Origin: a virus
Length of the DNA stretch: 22,850 nucleotides
Direction: 5' to 3' (one strand)
Virus record (IMG/VR): IMGVR_UViG_3300009160_000182
Location: 1-22,850 of that record
Part shown: in pieces, positions 9,427 to 21,816 of the stretch
How positions within the stretch are numbered: the first letter of the stretch is position 1
Layout of the letters: each line of letters starts with the position of its first letter
The notes under the pieces: generated by a model
Seen by the model: only the letters and a program-made list of their open reading frames with translations
Told to the model about the DNA's origin: nothing
The model's database searches: none
Program-made: the position numbers and the translations under genes

Positions 9427-11109
9427 TTATTGAGGGGGCGGGGATTCGCCCGGGTCCTGCTGCATCTGCTGGGCCGTAGCCGCGGCGGTGGCCAGCTTTG
9501 CCGGGTCCGCCATGGGGGACTGCATCAGCTGCTGCTGCTGCGCTGCCTGCTGCTGCTGGGCCTTGATCTCGGCCACCTTCTGCTCGGGCAGCACCAGGTC
9601 GATCGACTCGATGCCCAGCCCGTTGCTGAGCCGGGTAATGGCGTCGCTCACGTCGATGCGGGCCGTGATCTCCTGGGGGCCAACGATCTTGCCCAGCGCA
9701 TCCAGGCCCTGCAGAAACCTCATCATCTTTTCCAGATCGTTGCCCCGGCCAACTGCTGCCAGGCCAACGCTCACCACTGGCTTTACCAAGTCCTTGGGCA
9801 GCTGGATCTTTCCCTGCTTGGTCAGAACATGCAGCTTCCGGGTGATGTACGGATTTTGAAACTCGGTCGTCAAGACGGAATAGACCCCGACCTGTCCCTC
9901 GTCCATCCGCTGCGCAACCATCCGCACCTCTTCGGCGGTGGTGCGCTCCGAATCCCTGACGTCCGACATCATGAAGGCCCGTTTCAGGGTGGCCTCCACC
10001 CGTTGCAGGCGGGCTTCTGCCACCACGAGGCCCTGCCCCCTGCGGCCATCAGATCCCAGCTCCTTCACGTCGTCTGGATGGCCAACCACATAGCCGCCGT
10101 TGCGGCAGGCCACCAGGTCCTTGATGCTTGTGACCCCGCCAGGGCGGACCACGTTCTTGCTTTCGGCGGCGATCATCGCCCCCTCGGTTACGGCCTGGCT
10201 AAGGGATTCGGCGGTTTGCAGTGCGGCCAGGCAACGGGCTTCGATGTAGCCGGGGCCGTAGTCGCAGCTTTCGATCCTCGTCGCCCGCAGCGGCATCCAT
10301 GGGGAGATTTCGATATCGACCTCCGTGTCCTGTCCGTCAATCTCCTCCCCCTTGCATTCCTGACACCAGTGGACCTTCCCCTTGGTGTAGTCCCATTCCA
10401 CGTGGGTGTAGACCTTGATCACCTCCTCCTCGTTCATCACCTTGGTGGCGGCCAACGGATCGGGGCTGTCGTCCTCGCTCTCCTCGTCATCGAGTAGGCC
10501 CAGGTGCTCGGCCACCACCTTCGGCAGGCTGTCCTCGGTGAAGCTCTCGCAGATCACCGCTTCCAGCGGTCGGCCCATCGGGTCCCGCTTCAGCACGTAG
10601 CGGTTCAGGTGGTAGCAGGTGAGCCCGTCGTCTTCGTCGTCGTAGAGCAGGATGTTGCCGGGGCCGACCAGGTGGACCATGGCCTCCTGCACCACGGCGC
10701 GGTCGTGGGTGCTGTTGATCTCGCGGAGCACCGACCGCTCAAGCGCCAGCAGGCTGCGGTCGAACTCCACCATGGATTTGGCAATGTCCTCCTCTGCCTC
10801 TCCGGCCTGCCGGGCATCACTGATCAGGGTGGCCCGTTGCTTCTCGTCGATCGTGTACTTGAAGAACGTCTCGCTGGCCGGCATGACCGCCAGCAGCCAG
10901 CGGCTGGCCAGGTGCTGGTGACCCTCGGCGCCGATGTCATTCCATGGCAGCGGGTAGGTCTCAGGCTGGCCCTGGTCCGGGTCGTTGGCGGCCGGCACCA
11001 GCCATGGAAGCGTCAGACGGCAGGACCGCCGGGCACGCGCTAGCCAGCGGTCACGATCGGACCGGAGCTTTTCGTAGCGCTGTTCGGCAGGCCCCTGCGT
11101 GGTGTCCAT
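9427..11109 (-). CDS. Portal protein (head-tail connector, T7 gp8-like)
   Basis: 560 residues from ATG 11109, compared with 536 for T7 gp8. Similarity runs the full length: RYEKLRSDRDRWLARAR and LPWNDIGAEGHQHLASRWLL near the start, GNILLYDDED, YTHVEWD, RTTAEEVRMVAQRMDEG with GVYSVLTTEF, and VSVGLAAVGRGNDLEKMMRF. It forms the dodecameric ring at the head vertex through which DNA is packaged and ejected. The C-terminus is Gln-rich (QQQQAAQQQQ) and ends in Pro. The start is set by a one-base gap to the upstream stop (TGAAATG); the in-frame codon at 11166 lies in the preceding gene. Confidence 0.95.
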   Translation of the reverse strand: MDTTQGPAEQRYEKLRSDRDRWLARARRSCRLTLPWLVPAANDPDQGQPETYPLPWNDIGAEGHQHLASRWLLAVMPASETFFKYTIDEKQRATLISDARQAGEAEEDIAKSMVEFDRSLLALERSVLREINSTHDRAVVQEAMVHLVGPGNILLYDDEDDGLTCYHLNRYVLKRDPMGRPLEAVICESFTEDSLPKVVAEHLGLLDDEESEDDSPDPLAATKVMNEEEVIKVYTHVEWDYTKGKVHWCQECKGEEIDGQDTEVDIEISPWMPLRATRIESCDYGPGYIEARCLAALQTAESLSQAVTEGAMIAAESKNVVRPGGVTSIKDLVACRNGGYVVGHPDDVKELGSDGRRGQGLVVAEARLQRVEATLKRAFMMSDVRDSERTTAEEVRMVAQRMDEGQVGVYSVLTTEFQNPYITRKLHVLTKQGKIQLPKDLVKPVVSVGLAAVGRGNDLEKMMRFLQGLDALGKIVGPQEITARIDVSDAITRLSNGLGIESIDLVLPEQKVAEIKAQQQQAAQQQQLMQSPMADPAKLATAAATAQQMQQDPGESPPPQ

Positions 11110-12161: not shown

Positions 12162-12920
12162 CTACGGGGTGCCGTCAGGTGGAGACCACAGGATTGGCAG
12201 TTCTCGATCCTCGTCATATTCGCCAGATCGAAGAATGCGGGCCAGCCGCACTTGGGTGATGGCATCCTTGCGAGTCAGGCCGGCCTTCTCGAAAGCCTTC
12301 AGCACGGCCGCCCACATCGCTGCGGCATCGGGCCGTCCGGCCAGGATACCCTCCGCCTTGACCTTGCCGATGCCAGGGCAGCCGGGGTAGTTGTCCGTGG
12401 CGTCCCCGATCAGCGCCTGCGAGAACACATTCAGATCGGCCTGATGCTCGGAAACCTCCATGAACTCCGTGCCTCGAAGGTGCAGGCCGGGGATCCCCAA
12501 CAGGTCTTTGTCCTCGCTCACGATCACATCACCAGGGCGGCAGAGGATGCCCATCACATCGTCGGCCTCGACCTCGGCCAGCATGGCGATGTTCCATCCC
12601 CGCACCTCTCCGGCGGCGATCACCCACTGGACCAGCTGGCTGTAGCCGGCCGGCTTGCGGCTGGCCTTGCGGTTCGCCTTGTAGGGGGAGAACAGGGAAT
12701 AGCGGAAGCTGGCGGCAGTGCCGAGGCACAAATGCAGCTGGTGGTCGGGCAGCGCATCACGGACGGATGCAAGGAAGTCCTGGAAACGGGCCCTGGCCTC
12801 GCCGTGGCGGCACGCATAGGTCCAGTCATCCGGTGCCCACTCGATCTCGTATTCGGACACGGCGGTGCAACGGCGGAGGTAGAGCTCCGCATCTACCAGG
12901 GCCCTGGGTTGGTCGGTCAC
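12162..12920 (-). CDS. 5'-3' exonuclease (T7 gp6 / Pol I 5'-nuclease family)
   Basis: 252 residues from a GTG start at 12920, which overlaps the upstream stop as GTGA; the longer ATG frame from 13058 would overlap that gene by 140 bases. It shows the flap/5'-nuclease layout: metal-binding Asp10 in ALVDAELY, a basic/aromatic patch FRYSLFSPYKANRK (72-85), acidic cluster EVEADD (116-121), SEDKD (135-139), Asp173 and Asp176 in IGDATDNYPG, and a helix-hairpin-helix PGIGKVKAEGIL (182-193). In T7, gp6 removes RNA primers, degrades host DNA and feeds recombination. It is the last gene of the DNA-metabolism operon, immediately before the virion genes as in T7, but no DNA polymerase gene precedes it. 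Confidence 0.93.
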   Translation of the reverse strand: MTDQPRALVDAELYLRRCTAVSEYEIEWAPDDWTYACRHGEARARFQDFLASVRDALPDHQLHLCLGTAASFRYSLFSPYKANRKASRKPAGYSQLVQWVIAAGEVRGWNIAMLAEVEADDVMGILCRPGDVIVSEDKDLLGIPGLHLRGTEFMEVSEHQADLNVFSQALIGDATDNYPGCPGIGKVKAEGILAGRPDAAAMWAAVLKAFEKAGLTRKDAITQVRLARILRSGEYDEDRELPILWSPPDGTP

Positions 12921-13201
12921 GACGCCACCTCTGCCGGCACCGTGCGGCCCCGCAGCCAGTCCTGAACCCGCTGCAGCGCGTCGGGCGGGACGAATTGGGA
13001 GCGGAACGGCAGCCAGCGCGATCCATCCCATTCGCCACACGGAAGCCAGGCGGCGCACTGGTCCAGAAACTTCCGCTTGCTGTTGTGACGCTCAAACGTC
13101 ACAAGCCACTGCCCCCTGCAGGGACCAAGCCCAGGGCGGGCAGTCACGAGGATGCGGCCCATGCCGATCTTCTCCTCCAGGATTGTGTAGGTATCAGGCA
13201 T
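12917..13201 (-). CDS. Hypothetical 94-aa protein
   Basis: It begins MPDTYTILEEKIGMGRILV and ends RGRTVPAEVAS. A beta-strand-rich first half (GRILVTARPG, GQWLVTFER) is followed by a Trp-rich half (AAWLPCGEWDGSRWLPF) and a short helix (PPDALQRVQDWLRGR). There is no recognised domain. Its start overlaps the upstream stop (TGATG) and its stop overlaps the exonuclease start (GTGA), so it is translationally coupled on both sides and is surely coding. Being coupled to the exonuclease suggests a role in DNA metabolism, but that is only context. Confidence 0.7.
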   Translation of the reverse strand: MPDTYTILEEKIGMGRILVTARPGLGPCRGQWLVTFERHNSKRKFLDQCAAWLPCGEWDGSRWLPFRSQFVPPDALQRVQDWLRGRTVPAEVAS

Positions 13202-13422
13202 CAGAGGATGGGGGTGTCGTTGTTGTGGCGGTTCCGGTATGCCTCCAGGTCGCGGAAGAACATATCGGCGAAGCGTGGATGGGCGTCCAGAAAATCCCAC
13301 GTGGGCAGAGTGAACTCGGCGTGCGGTGGCAGGTCGTGGTTGAACTGTTCGACCGACCAATACCCAGCGAGCAATCCGCGCTGCAGGATGTTTCGGATCT
13401 GGTCTTTAGGCAGCAGAGGCAT
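13201..13422 (-). CDS. Hypothetical 73-aa protein
   Basis: It begins MPLLPKDQIRNILQRGLLAG and is rich in aromatic residues (YWSVEQFN, TWDFLDAHPRFADMFFRDLEAY). It starts inside the last 17 bases of the preceding gene and ends by TGATG overlap with the next. The longer frame back to 13572 is rejected because it would lie inside the 175-aa gene and its N-terminal composition is that of antisense/shadow sequence. No family is recognised; predicted mostly helical, soluble. Confidence 0.65.
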   Translation of the reverse strand: MPLLPKDQIRNILQRGLLAGYWSVEQFNHDLPPHAEFTLPTWDFLDAHPRFADMFFRDLEAYRNRHNNDTPIL

Positions 13423-13933
13423 TGGACCCCTGCCGCTGCTGTCCCTTCTGCAGATACTCGATCCAGTCCTTCCGTGAAAGGCTCTGGGAATCCGAAGCGG
13501 CAGCCGGCAGCAGGCGCTGCTCATCGCCGCCGGCTGCCACCAGGCTGTAGGCGGCGGGGTTCTCGGCGCCATCCGGCGGGGGCGAGGCCAGCCCCGACGG
13601 CAGCATGGCCAGCTGCTGCCGCGTTGGCTGGAGCGATCGAGGTAGGTCTTCTTTGAATCCCCACGCTCGATTCGGCACTCCCGATTGGCACCGATAGAGC
13701 GGCACCATCAGCTGTCGCCATGTCGGGAACCGCAGGAACTCACCGGTGGCCCCCTGGATCCAGCGCTCGCAGGCCCAGAGGAACTGCGGTGTGCTGACCT
13801 CCGGGAAGTCAGTGCTGAATGACACAAACTTCAGCTTGAAATCCTCGGTGCTCCAAGTTGCGTCTGCCCTGGTCCTGATGTGGCGCTCGATCATGCGGCA
13901 ACCACGGGTAAAGGCCTCCGGGTCAAGCAACAT
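13406..13933 (-). CDS. Uncharacterised 175-aa protein in replication module
   Basis: The first two thirds are compact, with many aromatic residues and Trp: FLWACERWIQ followed by EFLRFPTWRQLMVPLYRC and NRAWGFKEDLP, which looks like a conserved globular core. The last third (from about residue 115) is Ala/Pro/Ser-rich and likely flexible. It overlaps the zinc-ribbon gene by 11 bases, so the two are translated together. I have an impression of similar hypothetical proteins in cyanobacterial prophage-like loci but cannot verify that. By position it replaces part of the T7 primase-helicase/polymerase block; a helicase-loader or accessory role is speculative. Confidence 0.72.
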   Translation of the reverse strand: MLLDPEAFTRGCRMIERHIRTRADATWSTEDFKLKFVSFSTDFPEVSTPQFLWACERWIQGATGEFLRFPTWRQLMVPLYRCQSGVPNRAWGFKEDLPRSLQPTRQQLAMLPSGLASPPPDGAENPAAYSLVAAGGDEQRLLPAAASDSQSLSRKDWIEYLQKGQQRQGSNASAA

Positions 13934-14537
13934 CGGCCCGCTCCAGCATGTCCCGGATAGCCGCGGCGGCCGGATCGCCCGCGGGGGCGGCGGCCGGTGG
14001 GGCTGCTGAGGGAGTGCCGCGCAGGTACTCAGGCTTCAGGGCCTGCCAGCCGTGCTCGATGCCAGCTTCCACCAGGGCCTGGGCCACGGGCATCTGCCCT
14101 TTGAGCACAAGATCGATGATCCGGTTGGCCGAGAGGGTAAATGCGGCCTGGGTCCAGGTGGCCCCTGTCCGGTGCTTGCCCCAGCGGCTTTCGTTCCACC
14201 ATCGAAGGAGGTCAGTCAACAGGAATGGTGGAAGGTGAAAAACAAAGACTTTCAGCCACTCCTCCTCCCCGGTCAGCGGATGCAGTCGATCCGGGGCGGG
14301 GCTGGCGGCCCGCCTTCGGGGTGCGGCCGGTGCGGGCGTGGCCGGCTGCGAATCGGGCACGACGGCCAGGGGCGCCGGCAGCCATGCGCCGTCGTGGTAG
14401 ACCTCGATCCTCTGAACGGTGGTGAACGCTTTGCCGCACCCGCGGCAGGCATGGCGACGGCGGATGGCGTTCTCTCCCTGGGAATCGCGGGTTTCGAGCA
14501 CCCGGCTGTGAGGATGGCCGCAGTGGGGGCAGTTCAT
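13923..14537 (-). CDS. NrdR-like zinc-ribbon protein, possible replication or regulatory factor
   Basis: 204 aa. The N-terminal 45 residues form a zinc ribbon, with Cys3-Cys6 and Cys31-Cys34, and the flanking pattern A-I-R-R-R-H-A-C-R-G-C-G-K-A-F-T-T-V-Q-R closely follows the NrdR N-terminus. The NrdR ATP-cone domain is absent. Instead a Pro/Ala linker (about 55-85) leads to a helical domain (90-170) containing LPPFLLTDLLRWWNESRWG and ALVEAGIEHGWQALKPEYL, then an Ala/Pro tail. It is therefore not a genuine NrdR. Zinc ribbons fused to helical DNA-binding domains occur in phage initiators and regulators, and its place where T7 has primase-helicase makes a replication role plausible but unproven. 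It overlaps both neighbours (TGATG upstream, 11 bases downstream). Confidence 0.75.
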   Translation of the reverse strand: MNCPHCGHPHSRVLETRDSQGENAIRRRHACRGCGKAFTTVQRIEVYHDGAWLPAPLAVVPDSQPATPAPAAPRRRAASPAPDRLHPLTGEEEWLKVFVFHLPPFLLTDLLRWWNESRWGKHRTGATWTQAAFTLSANRIIDLVLKGQMPVAQALVEAGIEHGWQALKPEYLRGTPSAAPPAAAPAGDPAAAAIRDMLERADVA

Positions 14538-15565
14538 CAGACCTTGCTCCAGTCGATCGTGATGGCCGGGTGGAGGGTGCCGGCGATCAGGGCATCGATC
14601 ACAGCGAGGCGGTTGAGGCCTGCCAGCGCACAGCCAAGCTCACACCGGAGCTTCTGCTCTGCGTCAATGTCGGCGATTTCGTGCCGCGATCCAAGCGCGG
14701 CCGCCACCGGCGCCTCCGCCGGGGTGATTGCCAGCAGGGCCTCCGACTGCAGCAGGTCGGCCACCGCCTCGGAGTCGGCAGCCCTGGCCTCCGCCGCTGC
14801 GGCCCTGGCCTCGGCATCGGCCGCCTTCTGCTCGGCCTCCTGGATCGCCAACAGCGCAGCAGCATCGGCCTCCTCCTGCGCCTTGCGGGCCGCTTCGGCA
14901 ATGGCTTCCTGCTGCGCCTTGAGGCGTGCCTCCTCGGCATCCTTCTCCTGCTGGATCCGCTGCTGCTCGCGCAGCTGGGCCAGCTCGGCGGCGGCGGACT
15001 CGTCGGCCAGGGCCTTGGCGTGGGCGGCTTCGAGGGTGCGGATCGTTTCCAGCAGGGCGGCGGCGCCCTCCTCCTTGAACTCCTCCAGCCCGTCGATGTC
15101 GGCGGCCTTGGCCTCGGCCAGCCAGTAGCCAATGGCTTCGGACGTGGCGCCGAACCCGACATTGCCGTAGGCCTTAATGCCGCTGATCACATCCCGATGC
15201 CGCTGCACCCGATCGGCCTCGGCCTTGGTGATGGCATCGATCGCATCTTGGTGCGGCTTGATCAGCGCATCCACCTGGTCCTTGAGCTCTGCGGCCTGGC
15301 TATCGACCGTGCGGCCATAGGCCAGTGCGTAGGCCTTGGCGTCGGTGCGTGCTGATTCGATCCGGGCCTTCAGCTTGCGGATCGCAAAGATGTAGCTGCG
15401 GGCCAGCTTGTTGCCCTTGGGATCGGCGTAATCGAAGGTCGCATCCTTGGCTGCCGCAGCAGCCTCCTTGATGTCGCCCAGCAGCACATCAAACTGGCTG
15501 ATGACGATGGCCTTGGGCGCCGTGGCCAGCGCCTCGGCTTCGGGGGGTGGTGCGGTGGTGGTCAT
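14537..15565 (-). CDS. Long coiled-coil phage protein of the recombination/replication module
   Basis: 342 aa from ATG 15565, overlapping the resolvase stop as ATGA; the upstream in-frame start at 15682 would lie inside that gene. The N-terminal part (about 20-125) is helical: a DADP-type segment FDYADPKGNKLARSYIFAI then RKLKARIESARTDAKAYALA, followed by helices around DALIKPHQDAIDAITKAEADR. Residues about 165-290 form a long Glu/Ala/Gln/Lys coiled coil. The C-terminus (LAVIDALIAGTLHPAITIDW) matches a pattern common in phage proteins of the DUF1351-like kind, where a short helix is followed by G-x-x-x-x-I-x-I-x-Y/W. Those usually sit beside single-strand annealing or SSB genes, as here. Function unknown; perhaps an exonuclease or SSB partner. 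Confidence 0.8.
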   Translation of the reverse strand: MTTTAPPPEAEALATAPKAIVISQFDVLLGDIKEAAAAAKDATFDYADPKGNKLARSYIFAIRKLKARIESARTDAKAYALAYGRTVDSQAAELKDQVDALIKPHQDAIDAITKAEADRVQRHRDVISGIKAYGNVGFGATSEAIGYWLAEAKAADIDGLEEFKEEGAAALLETIRTLEAAHAKALADESAAAELAQLREQQRIQQEKDAEEARLKAQQEAIAEAARKAQEEADAAALLAIQEAEQKAADAEARAAAAEARAADSEAVADLLQSEALLAITPAEAPVAAALGSRHEIADIDAEQKLRCELGCALAGLNRLAVIDALIAGTLHPAITIDWSKV

Positions 15566-16029
15566 TTCGGTTGGTTGAGAACGTGATGGGCGTAGACGGC
15601 AAGGGCAAGCGCTGCCCATAGATGGCTCTTGATCCCGTAAGTCGGGCCGGGGCTCTTCTTGGTTCCGGGTGGGCCAAGGCAATCGATCAACGCCTGGCGG
15701 ACATTGGCGTCCTTGGCCTTATTGGTGCCGCACAAATGGAGCTTGATGTCCTTGCGGAAATAGCGGGCCTGCAAGTCCTTGTGGACATAGGCCTCCTCAA
15801 ATCGACCGATCCATGCGCAGGTATCGAAGACCTCGGCTCCCACGGGCATGCCGTAGGAAGCAATCATCTCGATTGCTAGGTGGGGAAAGGGGTGAACCGT
15901 GTGGCCACCTCTTAGGGTGCGGACTATCTCCTTGTTGTCCTGGATTTCGGCAGCAATGATCCTGCGCTCAGGACTCAGCCACACAACCCCGGACACCTCG
16001 GGACCGGGGTCGATGGCCATGATGTTCAT
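15562..16029 (-). CDS. RuvC-like Holliday junction resolvase
   Basis: 155 aa with an RNase H-type fold: Asp7 in the opening strand (NIMAIDPGPEVSG), Glu54 in the second acidic position (LAIEMIASYGMPVG), and a C-terminal GIKSHLWAALALAVYAHH helix in which His136 replaces the usual acidic residue, as in several phage RuvC relatives. Basic segment RYFRKDIKLHLCGTNKAKD is consistent with DNA binding. It would cut branched DNA before packaging. T7 uses an unrelated enzyme (gp3) for this, so this is a non-orthologous replacement in roughly the same gene position. It overlaps both neighbours by ATGA. Confidence 0.88.
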   Translation of the reverse strand: MNIMAIDPGPEVSGVVWLSPERRIIAAEIQDNKEIVRTLRGGHTVHPFPHLAIEMIASYGMPVGAEVFDTCAWIGRFEEAYVHKDLQARYFRKDIKLHLCGTNKAKDANVRQALIDCLGPPGTKKSPGPTYGIKSHLWAALALAVYAHHVLNQPK

Positions 16030-16367
16030 CGCTTGCCACCTCGCTGGTCGTAGGTGTCGGCATTGATGATCGTGAGACGATCGCCGCCACGCGCCGCGAA
16101 CGGTCTATGCAGCAGCGATGGATCCTTCCTGGCGATATGGATCCCTTGCTGAATCCCATCCAGGTAGGCAACCCTGGAATCGAGGGCCATCGCTTTGCTG
16201 CCTGTTCGCAGCCCGGCCCAGAGCCAACGGGCAACCCCGCAGGGCAGGGCCAGAAAGATGGGCAGCGCATAGTGCCCGTTGCTCTGCCAGTCGTACCAGG
16301 CCGGCCCGTACCAAGCCGGAACGCATTGGCCGGGTCCGATGAATTGAAGCAGCTGGAATCGCTTCAT
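16026..16367 (-). CDS. Small membrane protein with one predicted transmembrane helix
   Basis: 113 aa. The N-terminus is rich in Trp/Tyr/Pro (PAWYGPAWYDWQS), then a hydrophobic segment of about 20 residues (HYALPIFLALPCGVARWLWA, about 37-56) can span a membrane. The remainder is soluble and mildly basic. It starts by ATGA overlap with the 68-aa gene and ends by ATGA overlap with the RuvC-like gene. No family is recognised. A holin or pinholin-type role is possible because no lysis gene is otherwise visible, but a single segment and a replication-operon location make that only a guess. Confidence 0.65.
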   Translation of the reverse strand: MKRFQLLQFIGPGQCVPAWYGPAWYDWQSNGHYALPIFLALPCGVARWLWAGLRTGSKAMALDSRVAYLDGIQQGIHIARKDPSLLHRPFAARGGDRLTIINADTYDQRGGKR

Positions 16368-16570
16368 TTGGCGCCAACCTTGCGACGATTGATTGCATCG
16401 ACCTCCTCCCGCACTTGGTCGCGGCAGGCGTCGTAGAGAGCTTTGCTGTGTGCGCCCCAGCTCTCGGCAGGCACAGTCGCTTGCATAGAGCAAGGAATAC
16501 CCACGTTTTCGTAGTTGCCCAGGTTGACCTTGGCGGAGAATGACCGTGCGATCGTGATTTCTTGGCTCAC
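16364..16570 (-). CDS. Conserved-looking 68-aa phage protein
   Basis: It starts with GTG at 16570 in a GTGA overlap with the SSB stop; the longer frame to 16810 is shadow sequence in the SSB gene. The product begins V/MSQEITIARSFSAKVNLGNY followed by ENVGI, a pattern I associate with short phage proteins of unknown function that lie next to SSB or recombination genes. A short helical tail (DACRDQVREEVDAINRRK) follows. The length, coupling and beta-then-helix layout suggest a small accessory of the DNA-binding machinery. Confidence 0.7.
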   Translation of the reverse strand: MSQEITIARSFSAKVNLGNYENVGIPCSMQATVPAESWGAHSKALYDACRDQVREEVDAINRRKVGAK

Positions 16571-17214
16571 CAGAGCTCCTCCCCAGCGCTGGCTGGTCCC
16601 TCGGCAGCATCGAACCCAAACGGATCCGCAGCAGCAGGGGCCAGGGTGGTGGCGTCCGTGCCCTCCTCGGGCGCACCGAAGACACCGGGGTCCACGGCTT
16701 GAATGGTGTAGGGGACGTGGTTGAGAACACGCACGCCAAGCAGCTGCAGGGTTAGCCCTTTCCCGCCTCTTTCGTTCTCCCACAAATAGCAGGAATAGGC
16801 AAGTTTGCACACCGACCCGTTGCCGATTGCGACATCAACAGGCCAAGGATTCCCTTTGGCGTCTTGCACCATGGGAGGCGGCAACGGGGTGCCGCGCTTG
16901 GTTTCCGTATCACGGCTAAAGGTGATCCTCACCAGTCCAGTAGGGATTTCGATGCCGTTGTCATCGACAATCGTTTCCTTCTTCCACGGCCTTCCGTTTG
17001 GGCCGTACTTGGCGTTGCCGCCATATTTATCCATGAATGCTCTATGCAGGGAGCCAACGAACTGTTTCGCTATCGGATCCCGATCCGGATCAGCTTGAAG
17101 CAGCACGATTCCGTGCTGCATCTTTTCACCTGAATCGTTCTTAACAAGCTTGGCCTTAAGGACGTTTGCAAACAGGACTTCGCCGGCCGGGGTGACCAGC
17201 GTTTCGGATGCCAT
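16567..17214 (-). CDS. Single-stranded DNA-binding protein (DUF2815/gp2.5-like OB fold)
   Basis: 215 aa from ATG 17214. The central region (NGSVCKLAYSCYLWENERGGKG then LTLQLLGVRVLN) matches the end of the OB-fold of the DUF2815 ssDNA-binding family, and DAKGNPWPVDVAIGNGS precedes it. The C-terminal tail is flexible and acidic, ending with an aromatic residue (AGEELW), as do T7 gp2.5 (ending in Phe) and bacterial SSB tips that dock partner proteins. An alternative GTG at 17256 would add 14 residues but lies in the palindrome, and no conservation supports it. It is the first gene after RNA polymerase, as gp2.5 is a middle gene in T7, and starts the long coupled operon. Confidence 0.85.
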   Translation of the reverse strand: MASETLVTPAGEVLFANVLKAKLVKNDSGEKMQHGIVLLQADPDRDPIAKQFVGSLHRAFMDKYGGNAKYGPNGRPWKKETIVDDNGIEIPTGLVRITFSRDTETKRGTPLPPPMVQDAKGNPWPVDVAIGNGSVCKLAYSCYLWENERGGKGLTLQLLGVRVLNHVPYTIQAVDPGVFGAPEEGTDATTLAPAAADPFGFDAAEGPASAGEELW

Positions 17215-17253
17215 GCTCTGCAGGGGTGTAGGGCTCCCGGATACTAGGGCATC

Positions 17254-17273
17254 CACTAGCGCAGGCGCTAGTG
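17254..17273. promoter_or_regulatory. Perfect palindrome between RNA polymerase and SSB genes, candidate operator
   Basis: CACTAGCGC-AG-GCGCTAGTG is a perfect 9-bp inverted repeat with a 2-bp centre, lying in the 60-bp gap between the RNA polymerase stop and the SSB ATG. Its outer half-site CACTAG recurs, also palindromically, upstream of the MarR-like gene (22528-22535). Size and symmetry fit a dimeric winged-helix repressor site. As RNA it would be a 9-bp hairpin without a U-tract, so a terminator is less likely. Confidence 0.5.
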
Positions 17274-17274
17274 C

Positions 17275-19716
17275 CTAGCTGAACAGATACGGGTTACTGC
17301 CGATCTCGCCGATCTCCAGCGCTCCCCGCGGCGGCGGCGGTGGCAGCGCCTTAAGCCCTGCGTTGCAACGGATCTCCTCGGCGATCGCCCCCAGCCAGTC
17401 GGTGGCATAGAGGGCCCGGAACTCGTCGAGCAAGGTCTTCTGCAACCAGTTGGCGTTGGCCGGATCAGTGGCGAAACAGTCGTGGTTGGTCAGCAACGGC
17501 ACACCTTGTTCTCCAGCCCTGTAGGCCACGGCATGCACCAGTGCCGCATCGAAGCTATGGACCAGGTTGGCGGTGATGCTGCCGTTGGTTCGCCGGGCGC
17601 TCAGCTCCCCCTCCGGCGGGTCCTCCTCGAAGGTGACGGCCGCGAGCTTGCCGAGGAGGTGCGTGCGGATCACGGATTTACTGGGTGTCGGCCGGCCTAC
17701 CTGCATGGGCCAGCCCATCGGCGTGGTCCACCTGATCTGTTGCTGGTGCTGGCCCACCACCTCCCGGCCCACATCGCAGAGCCAGCGGCGGAGCTGCATC
17801 AGGGATGCGGTTTCGGTGCCGAGCACCACCCGCAACCTGGATTCCAGGTAGCTGCTGGGCCGATAGATCCGGCCTGCCCAGTCATCCGCGGGCCCCAGCC
17901 GCTGCTGCAGTTGATCCCGGATGCCATCGGCCACCGTGCGGGAGGTGGAACCGAACGGCGTGTGCATCACGGCGGCCTTCACCCAGCTGCGATCAATGCC
18001 AAGTTCCAGCCAGCCGGCGGCGAGCTGGTGGGTCCGCGCATCCCCGCAATGCAGATCGATCTCCAGCTGCTGCTGCAGTCGCTGAACCACAACGGAATAG
18101 AGGTCGTTCGGCCCGGTGCCGCAGACATTGCACAGCTCGGCCATCGCTCGATCCCGGAGCAGGGCCGCGATGATCCCGGCGCCGGAGCAGGTTTGATCCA
18201 GGCGGATGGGAACCCCGCAACTTTCGAGGGGGTAGGACAGCCGGCCGCTGCATCTAGTAACCCTGGCAACCGCTCGGCTCAGCTGGAGAAACTGCCAGGG
18301 CTGCCTTGCCTCCCGCCACAAGTGGGCATTGCCCAGCGGGTCATCAGCTACAGCCAGCATCCTCTCCCTGCTATCTGACCCCCACAGCATCCGGTCGTCC
18401 CATTGGTGGCGAGTGAACCCCCAGTGTCCGGCCGCTGCCTTCAATATCCACTCGAAACCAGCCCCGCCGGCCGGCGGCGAGTTGTGGAACTGCAGCAGGG
18501 CCTTCTGGTGGTCGGGGCCCTGGTGCGTGAGGCCCCGGTTTGCGGTGAAGGCCCGGCCCCGGAAGTCGAGGAAGTGAGCCTGATAGATCGGCCGGCCCAC
18601 CAGCGCCTCGGCGGTCTGCAGTGCCCGATCGATCGCCACCCGCTTGGAGCTGTTGTCCCTCAGGTCCTGGTGGTGCCGGGCCTGGTCGCGCCGCCAGGCA
18701 TCCTGCACATCCGGCGGCTCGCTGGTGGGGAACGGTCCCGCATCGGGCACGGGATCCCTCTCGACCGGGAACAGGCCGGGGATGCCCCGGTCCCACGCCT
18801 CCCGCTGCACCCGCAGCATCCACGGGTCCACCTCCAGCTGCTGCCGCTGCAGGACGTTGACGGCTGCCAGCTGCGGACCGATCCGGCCCGACAGGTAGCT
18901 GATCGCCGCGTGGTCTCGCGCCGCCCGGATCTGCACCACCGGGGAGGTGTTGGCCAGGTGGCCACCGCCTACCAGCCCCTCCCAGGGGATCGGCTCGATC
19001 ACCATCGGCCCCCGGTTTGGTCGGAGACTGCGGGGAGGGTGGCGCCGGATGAAGTCCAGGGCCTTGTCTGATGGCAGCACCCGCCACTGAGGGCGCCGGT
19101 TCGGCTGGTCGCTCTTGTCGATAATCACCAGCCCGGTTTCCCGGCGCACCACCTCGAGTAGGAGCAGGCCCACGGTCGCCCGCTCGATCCGGGTCCAGAT
19201 CGGGTTGGAACCCTCGATCGGCCGGGCGGCGATCGCCAAAACCGCCGCGCGCTTCTCCGCTGTGGTCCGGTCGAGCAGTCGATCCAGGCTGGCCGGGGAT
19301 CGCCGGCCGATCTCACCGGCCTTCACCTCGGCATCCACGGCCACACCGATGGCCAGGGCCAGCCCTTGAAAGCTGACGGCATGGGAAAGGCGGTCCAGGA
19401 TCGTGACCAGGGCCACCGCCGCGATGCGTTGCGGGCTGCCGAGGGCGGCCACCAGCGGCAGGGCCCCATAGCCAGGGCCGCCCAGCTGGGGGTTCTCGCC
19501 CAAGCGATAAAGAATCGCCTCGATCTCTCGGCTGACGGGATCAGCAAACTGCTGAAACAGTGCGGTTCCGTATTCGGTGCAGGACTCCCGGCGATACCGG
19601 CGGAGCACCTGCCGCATCACCAGCGCTCGCTGCTCGGCGTTGGTGGCCTCCTGCCATTCCAGCCGCTGCTGGAGGTCCCTGTCCACCGTGGTGGATTTGC
19701 TGCTTGGCGGATTCAT
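17275..19716 (-). CDS. Single-subunit DNA-directed RNA polymerase (T7 gp1-like), divergent
   Basis: 813 aa (T7: 883). Landmarks: LDFRGRAF with Asp384/Arg388 (T7 D421/R425), motif A RLDQTCSGAG with catalytic Asp507 (T7 D537), motif B VKAAVMHTPFGST with Lys580 (T7 K631) and Phe588 at the T7 Tyr639 position, ANLVHSFDAALV, motif C NHDCFATDP with Asp746 (T7 D812), and a C-terminal foot ALPPPPPRGALEIGEIGSNPYLFS resembling T7 MPALPAKGNLNLRDILESDFAFA in arrangement. Both metal-binding Asp are present, so activity is expected. Motif A is unusual (T7 has DGSCSGIQH), and the Tyr-to-Phe change affects the residue that rejects deoxynucleotides. It would transcribe the middle and late genes from phage promoters. 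No Shine-Dalgarno is evident before ATG 19716. Confidence 0.95.
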   Translation of the reverse strand: MNPPSSKSTTVDRDLQQRLEWQEATNAEQRALVMRQVLRRYRRESCTEYGTALFQQFADPVSREIEAILYRLGENPQLGGPGYGALPLVAALGSPQRIAAVALVTILDRLSHAVSFQGLALAIGVAVDAEVKAGEIGRRSPASLDRLLDRTTAEKRAAVLAIAARPIEGSNPIWTRIERATVGLLLLEVVRRETGLVIIDKSDQPNRRPQWRVLPSDKALDFIRRHPPRSLRPNRGPMVIEPIPWEGLVGGGHLANTSPVVQIRAARDHAAISYLSGRIGPQLAAVNVLQRQQLEVDPWMLRVQREAWDRGIPGLFPVERDPVPDAGPFPTSEPPDVQDAWRRDQARHHQDLRDNSSKRVAIDRALQTAEALVGRPIYQAHFLDFRGRAFTANRGLTHQGPDHQKALLQFHNSPPAGGAGFEWILKAAAGHWGFTRHQWDDRMLWGSDSRERMLAVADDPLGNAHLWREARQPWQFLQLSRAVARVTRCSGRLSYPLESCGVPIRLDQTCSGAGIIAALLRDRAMAELCNVCGTGPNDLYSVVVQRLQQQLEIDLHCGDARTHQLAAGWLELGIDRSWVKAAVMHTPFGSTSRTVADGIRDQLQQRLGPADDWAGRIYRPSSYLESRLRVVLGTETASLMQLRRWLCDVGREVVGQHQQQIRWTTPMGWPMQVGRPTPSKSVIRTHLLGKLAAVTFEEDPPEGELSARRTNGSITANLVHSFDAALVHAVAYRAGEQGVPLLTNHDCFATDPANANWLQKTLLDEFRALYATDWLGAIAEEIRCNAGLKALPPPPPRGALEIGEIGSNPYLFS

Positions 19717-19982: not shown

Positions 19983-20591
19983 TTACGGGGCGTGCAGGAC
20001 CACCACGGCGGACGGCATGGCGCCACCTCGGCCCATCGGCTGAACGATGGAGAGCAGGCTCTGGATCACGGCCGCTCGCCTCCTGATCAGGGCCAGGCAC
20101 TCGGCCGCCGTGGCCAGGGATCCCCGTGTGGGCCATCCAGTCATGGCCGCCAGCCGCTCGGACTCCCTGCTGAGATCGGCGCAGAGCACGCTGATCACTT
20201 CTGACACGTCCTCGCCGGGCAGCACCATGAAGGGCCGCGACGGGTTGGGCTTGGACTTGGCCTCCAGCTCTTCGAGGAACCAGCCATCCATCCACACAGC
20301 GAACTGCGGGGAGATCCAGCGGGCCAGGTCCACGGCGAGGCGTGGATGGATCCAGGTACCACGGAAACGATTGGGACCGGTGGTGGTGGTCAGCACCAGC
20401 CGATCGGCGGGAATGCCAAGGCGGGCGGCCAGGGCCTGGATGTAGTCGGTGGTGCGATCGTTGCGGATAAAGCCCGACCACTCCTTGCTGTTGGCGCGGC
20501 ACATGGCCGTCGCATTGGCATAACCGTCGCTGTCGCGGCGGGTGATGGGTGCGTCGTTCCACGTGCGGACGCTGAGGCCTGAGGCGTTCAT
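19983..20591 (-). CDS. KilA-N domain protein (possible antirepressor or lysogeny regulator)
   Basis: 202 aa from ATG 20591. The KilA-N DNA-binding fold spans about residues 10-115: GYANATAMCRANSKEWSGF with IRNDRTTDYIQAL, then GPNRFRGTWIHPRLAVDLAR and WISPQFAVWMDGWFLEELE, all hallmarks of the family. The C-terminal part (about 120-202) is helical and unassigned. KilA-N proteins in temperate phages are often antirepressors or early regulators. The start is chosen because the frame back to 20756 crosses the promoter and hairpin region and because the leader AAACAACCATGA is shared with another early gene at 22111. It sits between integrase and the att-like core, so its control could link integration with entry into polymerase expression. 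Confidence 0.9.
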   Translation of the reverse strand: MNASGLSVRTWNDAPITRRDSDGYANATAMCRANSKEWSGFIRNDRTTDYIQALAARLGIPADRLVLTTTTGPNRFRGTWIHPRLAVDLARWISPQFAVWMDGWFLEELEAKSKPNPSRPFMVLPGEDVSEVISVLCADLSRESERLAAMTGWPTRGSLATAAECLALIRRRAAVIQSLLSIVQPMGRGGAMPSAVVVLHAP

Positions 20592-20706: not shown

Positions 20707-20775
20707 CTCGAATGCGACCGGGCCTCCGATACGGTTTCAGGCGCCCGCCTCATCACCAGGCGCCACCGCGTCCAG

Positions 20776-20786
20776 CCTTACGGGTA
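20776..20786 (-). promoter_or_regulatory. Candidate phage RNA polymerase promoter upstream of KilA-N
   Basis: Minus-strand TACCCGTAAGG shares the 10-mer ACCCGTAAGG with the site at 22603-22612, and its ACCCGTAA equals the 3' end of the promoter I recall for cyanophage Syn5 RNA polymerase (ATTGGGCACCCGTAA). It is intergenic, 185 bp upstream of the KilA-N start. The upstream half does not match Syn5. Confidence 0.4.
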
Positions 20787-20808
20787 GGACCGACCCGGCG
20801 GGAGCAGG

Positions 20809-21816
20809 TTATCCGCTCTCCAGCGCTTCTACGCATGCCGAGAGGGCATCGGTGCTCAGGTGCAGGTAGCGCTTCACAGCAGCCAGGGAGCTCCACCCCC
20901 CGAAGGTCATCAACTGCACCAGGCTGATCCCCCTGGTGGCCAGTTTCGAGGCGCACGTGTGGCGGGTGGTGTGGATCGTGAGGGTCTGATCGTGGGCCAG
21001 TCCTAGGTGCTCCTTGGCCCGATCGAACAGGCGCCGGTAGCGGTCGTAGCTGTAGGGGAACACCCGGGCGCCCGGCACCGGCACGCCGCAGGCCTTCACC
21101 GCATCGAGGGCCCGGGCGGTGAGAGGCACCGTGCGTGGCATGCCGTTCTTGGTCTTCCAGAAGGTGCAGCGACCTCGATCCAGGTCCAGGTCCCCCCAGC
21201 GCAACCGCTCAACCTCTCCCCAGCGGGTGCAGGTTTCCAGCAGGAACACCAGCACCAGGGCCGCGGCGGGCTCCTCGATCGCCTGGAAGTATTCGATCAT
21301 CTGGTCCCGCTCGCGGTCGCTCATCACGCGGTCCTTCTCGCCGCCGGGCTTCAGCTGCTTGGGCATCGCCGGCCGGGTGGTGATGCGCCCGTGGAGCTGG
21401 GCATCGCTGAACATCGCTTTGAGGGCGGAGAGCTTCCGGTTGATGGTGGCCGGCCGGTTGCCCTGGCTTCGGAGCTTGCCCCTCCACTGCTCCACCGCTG
21501 TGGCGTTGATCGATTCGAGCGGTGTCGAGGGGCCGAAAAACTGCACCGCCGCAGCGCTGTAGATGGCGGCCGTTCGCTCATAAGGCAGCCCAGCCCAGCG
21601 AACCTCAAGCGATAGCTGCCGGGCCTGGGCCAGGGTGAAGCCCGCGGCGTTCACCACGGGTTCGGCCATCAGGTGGTCCCGCAGCTCTCTCCGCTTCCGC
21701 TCGGCCTCGGCCTTGGTGCGGCCGGAGGCCTGCCGCCGTTTGCCGTCAACCGTGACATCCGCGATCCAGCGTCTTTGGCCGCTGGCATCGATTCGTGGTC
21801 TAACTGCTCCGGTCAT
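20809..21816 (-). CDS. int: Tyrosine-family site-specific integrase
   Basis: 335 aa from ATG 21816. An N-terminal arm-type DNA-binding region (WIADVTVDGKRRQASGRTKA, about 17-36) and a core-binding SAM-like domain (about 60-145) precede the catalytic domain. Catalytic residues are in place: Arg198 in CTRWGEVERLRW, Lys221 or Lys223 in FWKTKNGMP, His282 and Arg285 in IHTTRHTCASKLA, Trp308 in FGGWSS and the nucleophile Tyr317 in VKRYLHLS. It should therefore be active in integrating phage DNA, probably at a leucine tRNA gene given the att-like core at 19829-19871. The upstream in-frame start at 21897 overlaps the preceding gene and crosses a hairpin; the ATG at 21816 follows a C/A-rich leader (CACACCATGA) without Shine-Dalgarno, like its early neighbours. 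Confidence 0.95.
   Translation of the reverse strand: MTGAVRPRIDASGQRRWIADVTVDGKRRQASGRTKAEAERKRRELRDHLMAEPVVNAAGFTLAQARQLSLEVRWAGLPYERTAAIYSAAAVQFFGPSTPLESINATAVEQWRGKLRSQGNRPATINRKLSALKAMFSDAQLHGRITTRPAMPKQLKPGGEKDRVMSDRERDQMIEYFQAIEEPAAALVLVFLLETCTRWGEVERLRWGDLDLDRGRCTFWKTKNGMPRTVPLTARALDAVKACGVPVPGARVFPYSYDRYRRLFDRAKEHLGLAHDQTLTIHTTRHTCASKLATRGISLVQLMTFGGWSSLAAVKRYLHLSTDALSACVEALESG

Follow-up and report, generated by a model that had tools for sequence, protein, structure and literature searches.

The stretch of DNA considered here is the IMG/VR virus record IMGVR_UViG_3300009160_000182 (positions 1 to 22,850), called the window below: one whole contig of 22.85 kb whose left end is cut within a virion gene (3-2684). 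It is a fragment of a T7-like phage equipped with its own single-subunit RNA polymerase and an integrase. The subject is the region from 12162 to 17256, bounded by the genes of a single-stranded DNA-binding protein (SSB) and a 5'-3' exonuclease. The lineage to which this phage belongs lacks both a DNA polymerase and a primase-helicase, and three proteins, denoted A, B and C, replace the helicase in its slot. The autonomous replisome of T7 is a textbook property of phages that possess an RNA polymerase of their own. The best explanation of the whole, which we regard as probable rather than secure, is that these phages keep their RNA polymerase, encode no replisome genes and recruit the host replisome by means of A, B and C.

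The absence of the two enzymes was established at several levels. In the six frames of the window, profile hidden Markov models (HMMs) of family A DNA polymerase (PolA) and of primase-helicases find no match, with T7 and roseophage CRP-171 positive. As the window holds only about half of a genome whose full size is near 42 kb, the complete-genome test was made on relatives, which were fetched by their RNA polymerase (a close set of 81-95% identity and a wider set of 34-41%). Nine complete relatives share the cassette: G004, G005, G006, G008, G017, G030, G043, the fosmid MedDCM-OCT-S38-C3 (S38-C3) and the cultured Synechococcus phage S-SRP02. Completeness is indicated by end overlaps of 123-186 bp in the seven IMG/VR contigs, by 50-bp end repeats in S38-C3 and by a circular record for S-SRP02. 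None of the nine matches PolA, PolB, Pol III alpha, DnaB_C or Toprim_2. More broadly, a six-frame search that detects PolA in T7, CRP-171 and a Limnohabitans phage (YIMV22061) finds it in none of the 58 lineage records tested; the MPP-C phage P-SCSP1i is helicase-positive and PolA-negative, matching its publication. PolB and Pol III alpha are likewise missing from the six frames of 22 lineage records. The DnaB_C and Toprim_2 domains occur, among the lineage records tested, only in S37-C6, S31-C1 and G025, all three devoid of B and C, and match no tested record that carries A and B. The same absence is returned by HMMs adapted to phage PolA and to the helicase of the lineage itself. The long open reading frames (ORFs) common to the complete genomes are exclusively virion proteins, RNA polymerase, integrase and terminase, and of the leftover longest ORFs that were tested, the majority encode tail fibres of T7 type or virion proteins.

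Polymerase and primase-helicase are thus truly absent from the lineage, and this is no effect of a contig end or of a chimera. A sequence-only reading of the window had reported that gp4 and gp5 are missing, with no family A polymerase or DnaB-like helicase motif in any frame, and had named a polymerase or helicase gene elsewhere in the genome or a chimeric assembly as what would overturn it. The complete relatives dispose of the former; the latter is dismissed by a gene order that recurs in over 70 independent contigs, the cultured phage and the fosmid. It follows that the phage DNA is copied either by enzymes of the host or by an unrecognised factor.

One apparent polymerase had to be discarded. 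The S-SRP02 paper labels gene p034 'DNA polymerase I' and used a 'DNA polymerase' for its tree (PMC8790148). The product of p034 (L036:22389-23129), of which the window exonuclease is a homolog, holds a 5'-3' exonuclease only, and so does a second product annotated in the same way (L038:20750-21481). The public annotation of S-SRP02 is hereby corrected: p034 is an exonuclease. Also set aside was the S-SRP02 'Pol III beta' of 234 amino acids (aa), which combines a partial clamp match (residues 36-97) with a RusA-like match and has no counterpart detectable with a clamp HMM in the other records.

All genes of the window that are discussed here lie on the minus strand. Their order begins with a MarR-like regulator, integrase, KilA-N protein, T7-like RNA polymerase, gp2.5-like SSB and two small ORFs, continues with a RuvC-like resolvase, a coiled-coil protein, A, B, C, an ORF of 94 aa and the exonuclease, and ends with small virion genes, portal, scaffold, capsid and tail tubes. 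From resolvase through exonuclease adjacent genes overlap by 1-17 bp. The tail protein matches PHROG 457 and the virion genes are homologous, in order, to those of S-SRP02; terminase was identified in complete relatives only. Gene content and order bear out the T7-like arrangement, from RNA polymerase via exonuclease to virion genes, that had been read from the sequence. Measured against the features of T7-like phages (Autographiviridae), the phage RNA polymerase and the order of portal, tail and capsid genes are present, and the gp5 polymerase and gp4 primase-helicase are not. Position 17256 is the longest-ORF start of the SSB gene, which is called here at 16567-17214. The features of the region are given below; dN/dS is the ratio of non-synonymous to synonymous substitution rates.

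17275..19716 (-): single-subunit T7-like RNA polymerase (PHROG 414 E=2e-128; Pfam RNA_pol E=6e-50; 40% identity to the S-SRP02 enzyme)
16567..17214 (-): gp2.5-like SSB / annealing protein (PHROG 112 E=7e-13)
16364..16570 (-): small accessory ORF, 68 aa; homologs confined to the window's clade; dN/dS 0.29-0.63
16026..16367 (-): accessory ORF, 113 aa; homologs in 3 relatives; dN/dS about 0.3
15562..16029 (-): RuvC-like Holliday junction resolvase, accessory (PHROG 1770 E=2e-13)
14537..15565 (-): coiled-coil protein, accessory (PHROG 1376, function unknown, E=4e-15); missing from most relatives
13923..14537 (-): protein A, NrdR-type zinc ribbon (residues 1-41) followed by a C-terminal domain (Pfam Zn_ribbon_NrdR E=8e-16)
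13406..13933 (-): protein B, orphan, predicted helical; 39 positions invariant across an alignment of 11 members; dN/dS 0.14-0.27
13201..13422 (-): protein C, 73-aa orphan; in 76/76 loci; dN/dS 0.17-0.29
12917..13201 (-): accessory ORF, 94 aa; homologs confined to the window's own clade
12162..12920 (-): 5'-3' exonuclease, T7 gp6-like, without polymerase domain (PHROG 107 E=3e-44; Pfam 5_3_exonuc_N)
9427..11109 (-): portal, the head-tail connector (PHROG 449 E=3e-121)

The cassette order RNA polymerase, SSB, optional resolvase, A, B, C, exonuclease and portal recurs in the nine complete and in some 70 partial relatives. At 76 additional B loci, C lies downstream of B in every case and A upstream in all 73 that are not cut off, and no polymerase or helicase is found at any of the 76. 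Wherever the contig is long enough, A-B-C sits between the SSB and exonuclease of phages with an RNA polymerase. The RuvC-like and coiled-coil genes, found only in the clade of the window and a small number of others, are therefore not the replacement; in S-SRP02 the place of the former is taken by a RusA (p027), a type also seen in other relatives. The proposal that RuvC-like, coiled-coil, zinc-ribbon and unknown proteins fill the slot consequently describes the window correctly, but its first two members are accessories absent from most relatives. The further suggestion that the replacing proteins are usual in lambda-like siphophages finds no support: A-B-C is specific to this lineage, B has relatives in just two of 50,697 phage records and none outside the lineage, and A and B give no match to lambda O or P.

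A sister clade illustrates the exchange. In S37-C6, S31-C1, G025 and 14 further loci a gp4-like primase-helicase occupies the same slot, and B, C and polymerase are missing from all of them; a zinc ribbon of 64-88 aa precedes the primase-helicase in the three named phages and in most of the 14. At loci with more distant helicases a PolA gene mostly follows directly behind the helicase. Three states can thus be distinguished: helicase with polymerase, helicase alone, and neither, with A-B-C. Within the lineage A-B-C and the gp4-like helicase are shown to be mutually exclusive. In a tree of the RNA polymerase the lineage forms one clade (100/100), within which the helicase type is itself a single clade (100/99); support for the deep forks is weak (83-85). 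The tree allows that A-B-C may be the older state, the helicase of the S37-C6/S31-C1 clade then being a later arrival. A doubtful, though conceivable, extension is that the T7-type replisome was swapped as a unit for a three-protein system that loads host DnaB without an AAA+ ATPase.

Proteins A, B and C comprise 204, 175 and 73 aa, respectively, and all are under purifying selection (dN/dS 0.14-0.29 for B and C, 0.37-0.52 for A). The C-terminal domain of A is conserved and helical, with the motif WWNESR...HGWQALKPEYL; its WWN is invariant, and a GxExGWQxL motif is also present. This part is conserved only where the helicase is absent; the zinc ribbon by itself occurs in helicase-type phages too. 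An ATP-cone is absent from A (TIGR00244 scores 40 bits, over residues 1-46 only, where its cut-off is 124.65), and a zinc ribbon without an ATP-cone means that A is not of the NrdR repressor type. B displays 39 invariant columns in an 11-sequence alignment and has no match in Pfam, PHROGs or PDB; its N-terminal part is confidently predicted to be helical, with no known fold. In G004, C is fused to B. No Walker A motif is present in B or C (71 sequences searched for B). Hits in six of 75 A sequences fit, by eye from the alignment, the zinc-ribbon string ACRGCGKS and were set aside. As a lead only, residues 107-112 of B, near the end of its ordered part, form a conserved Q-L-x-L/M-L-P that resembles a beta-clamp-binding motif, the fourth position being variable.

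In the scheme that we favour, transcription would be carried out by the phage's own single-subunit RNA polymerase and the DNA would be copied by host DnaB, DnaG and Pol III. The zinc ribbon of A would contact the phage DNA, and A, together with B and C, would bring in host DnaB; the phage SSB, exonuclease and resolvase would assist the host replisome. The sequence-only reading had suggested that the phage borrows the host replisome: the absence of polymerase and helicase on which it built is real, and use of the host machinery for the phage DNA is, to our mind, very likely. Whether A, B and C act as the loader is evenly balanced. The origin may be marked by a further component, a RepL-like winged-helix protein whose gene adjoins the terminase gene (TerL) in complete relatives of both the helicase and the A-B-C type (for example L059:14767-15150 and L036:9650-10024, both minus strand) and which is a candidate origin binder; A-B-C would then deliver the helicase there. 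The Pfam RepL model scores above cut-off in G017, G027 and G032, more weakly in W01, W02, G025, G043 and G047, and not at all in G004-G006 and G008.

Several observations weigh against this scheme. B and C resemble no known helicase loader (DnaC/DnaI-type AAA+ proteins, and lambda P tested for B). The C-terminus of A approaches PHROG 678, 'replication initiation O-like', with a best E=0.1 and for only 3/12 members. Comparison of A and B by hhalign with single lambda O or P sequences reveals no similarity; single sequences were compared as the lambda P relatives, 97-100% identical, are too alike for a profile. The structure models of A and B are weak (mean predicted local distance difference test, pLDDT, 67 and 74), and a PDB fold search retrieves only the NrdR zinc ribbon. 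Contact of any of the three proteins with DnaB or Pol III is our inference. The RepL-like gene lies beyond the window and its similarity to RepL is modest; a search for the origin met neither DnaA boxes nor iterons or other repeats, and the GC skew has no clear minimum. Finally, the host assignment rests on S-SRP02 and one bin of a Cyanobium metagenome-assembled genome (MAG).

Other explanations can be set beside this scheme. The host replisome might be recruited by the RepL-like protein alone, with A, B and C serving takeover, recombination, packaging or regulation and their position in the slot being coincidental. In complete genomes, whether of the helicase or of the A-B-C type, that protein lies beside TerL, which is in keeping with this, as is the zinc ribbon of helicase-type phages, which shows that the ribbon does not require a helicase-loading role. 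However, the absence of the helicase is tracked by just B, C and the C-terminal part of A, at the same position between SSB and exonuclease, and a RepL-like protein that is also encoded by the helicase-type G025 leaves the exchange unexplained; we consider this account unlikely. Replication could alternatively depend on recombination, the annealing protein, exonuclease and resolvase priming copying, through strand invasion or annealing, at host forks with no dedicated loader. The cassette does contain a gp2.5-like SSB/annealase, a 5'-3' exonuclease and a resolvase of RuvC or RusA type, but T7 combines these SSB and exonuclease functions with a replisome of its own, so that they demand no new mode, fork machinery would still be required and the constant A-B-C set would go unexplained. 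This possibility is decidedly improbable.

A divergent polymerase or helicase might be encoded and escape recognition. HMM absence never fully rules out extreme divergence, a reservation that the authors of the MPP-C study also kept (PMC9860041), and in the complete relative G043 long open frames on both strands at 39852-41537 (L166/L167) match no family. Against it, the constant proteins are too small, B and C have no Walker A, no other long ORF is common to the complete genomes and the remaining ones tested are mostly tail fibres, which makes such an enzyme very improbable. That the arrangement is an assembly artefact, or a prophage remnant stripped of its replication genes, is barely credible: the window is a fragment, but more than 70 contigs from many different metagenomes show the same order, as do a fosmid, an isolate and a contig of a MAG, isolated S-SRP02 grows on its host (PMC8790148), and the genes of the region are under purifying selection. 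Recruitment of the host replisome by A, B and C is the preferred explanation.

The host is probably a freshwater picocyanobacterium. Contig 17 of G055 (L178-L180; 44.8 kb), binned in a Cyanobium MAG, amounts to nearly the whole genome of a phage from the group most closely related to the window, with an RNA polymerase 94% identical; by binning only, it supports a Cyanobium-type host. It was rejected as a host prophage, as its ends overlap and it has no host flanks. No tRNA gene that could hint at an attachment site was found in the window; in S31-C1 a tRNA-Met gene (L039:39797-39869) overlaps the end of the integrase gene and is a likely attachment site. A host-genome match downstream of the integrase, initially a candidate attachment site, turned out to stem from an RNA element that neighbours KilA-N genes. 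On one contig (L147) the lineage genes are broken into many frames (RNA polymerase in seven pieces; integrase, SSB and portal split), indicating either frameshift-rich sequence or decay.

The RNA element lies between the integrase and KilA-N genes:

20809..21816 (-): tyrosine integrase (PHROG 1 E=8e-51)
20717..20799 (-): structured RNA element upstream of the KilA-N gene (covarying stem in a 21-sequence alignment; no Rfam match)
19983..20591 (-): KilA-N domain protein (PHROG 129 E=6e-22; S-SRP02 homolog annotated KilA-N)

This element of about 83 nt, predicted to fold as a three-way junction, is apparently an undescribed structured RNA. Scanning IMG/VR with a pattern turned up 21 stretches, and genome bins of cyanobacteria supplied two further copies (all together L342-L343 and L348-L368); the carriers are diverse phages and the bins. 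A KilA-N gene follows on the same strand in 22/23 stretches (21/22 of those checked), the exception ending just after the element. In the 21 aligned sequences the variable stem covaries, with 41 cells changed on both sides against 13 in shuffles and 99.3% of cells paired; the conservation of the 5' half is partly built in by the search pattern, that of the 3' half and of the variable stem is not. The element may control KilA-N regulators in cis. Beside the same element and KilA-N, an NrdR-type zinc ribbon with a different C-terminal part is encoded at L343:866-1474, L363:1275-1811 and L365:3639-4190; the ribbon thus has the look of a mobile DNA-binding head.

Loss of the polymerase by itself is not new. 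It was published in 2022 for the T7-like MPP-C cyanophages, in which the primase/helicase is retained and named a core gene; the authors suggest Pol I or Pol III of the host, or else a diverged enzyme, and draw an analogy to SPP1 (PMC9860041). The words helicase and primase do not occur in the text of the S-SRP02 paper (PMC8790148), and Mizuno et al. list group G9 as novel phages without assignable host (PMC3861242). No description of the double loss of polymerase and primase-helicase, or of the A-B-C set, was found in the literature, subscription papers being largely uncovered, which falls short of proof. The marked departure for a phage with its own RNA polymerase that the sequence-only reading perceived therefore shrinks to the loss of the primase-helicase: lack of a polymerase was already known, and the double loss with A-B-C was not found described.

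A widespread aquatic lineage has thus kept its RNA polymerase and given up both replisome enzymes, and its cultured member S-SRP02 allows testing. The three states provide a natural series for studying the switch from own to host replication, and A, B and C are candidates for proteins with which a phage may capture the DnaB of cyanobacteria. Surveys that employ a DNA polymerase gene as marker miss this lineage, as has been argued for MPP-C.

The window belongs with S-SRP02 and S38-C3, having A and B between SSB and exonuclease and an RNA polymerase in the same clade. S-SRP02 (MW822601, PMC8790148) shares the order MarR, integrase, KilA-N, RNA polymerase, SSB, resolvase, A, B, C, exonuclease and portal, with homologous A (annotated NrdR) and B and no PolA, helicase or TOPRIM; it differs in an RNA polymerase only 40% identical to the window's, a RusA rather than a RuvC-like resolvase and the lack of a coiled-coil gene. 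S38-C3 (Stopalavirus, AP013548) has the series from RNA polymerase through SSB, resolvase, A, B and C to exonuclease and no polymerase or helicase, but is marine and uncultured, with an RNA polymerase about 34% identical. The MedDCM phages S37-C6 and S31-C1 (Oinezvirus, Nohivirus) have the same RNA polymerase lineage, SSB, a short zinc ribbon and exonuclease and also lack a DNA polymerase, whereas their slot holds a TOPRIM and DnaB_C primase-helicase and B and C are missing. The MPP-C cyanopodoviruses (P-SCSP1) are T7-like cyanophages with RNA polymerase and exonuclease and without DNA polymerase; they keep the primase-helicase, have no A-B-C between RNA polymerase and exonuclease, and their RNA polymerase falls outside the window's lineage. 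T7 itself is alike in RNA polymerase, SSB, exonuclease and virion gene order, but has gp4 and gp5 upstream of gp6, and the window lineage has neither. In SPP1 and lambda a phage initiator and a helicase-recruiting protein enlist the host replisome, which copies the DNA: the working proposed for A, B and C would be the same as that of G38P/G39P and O/P, achieved with apparently unrelated parts.

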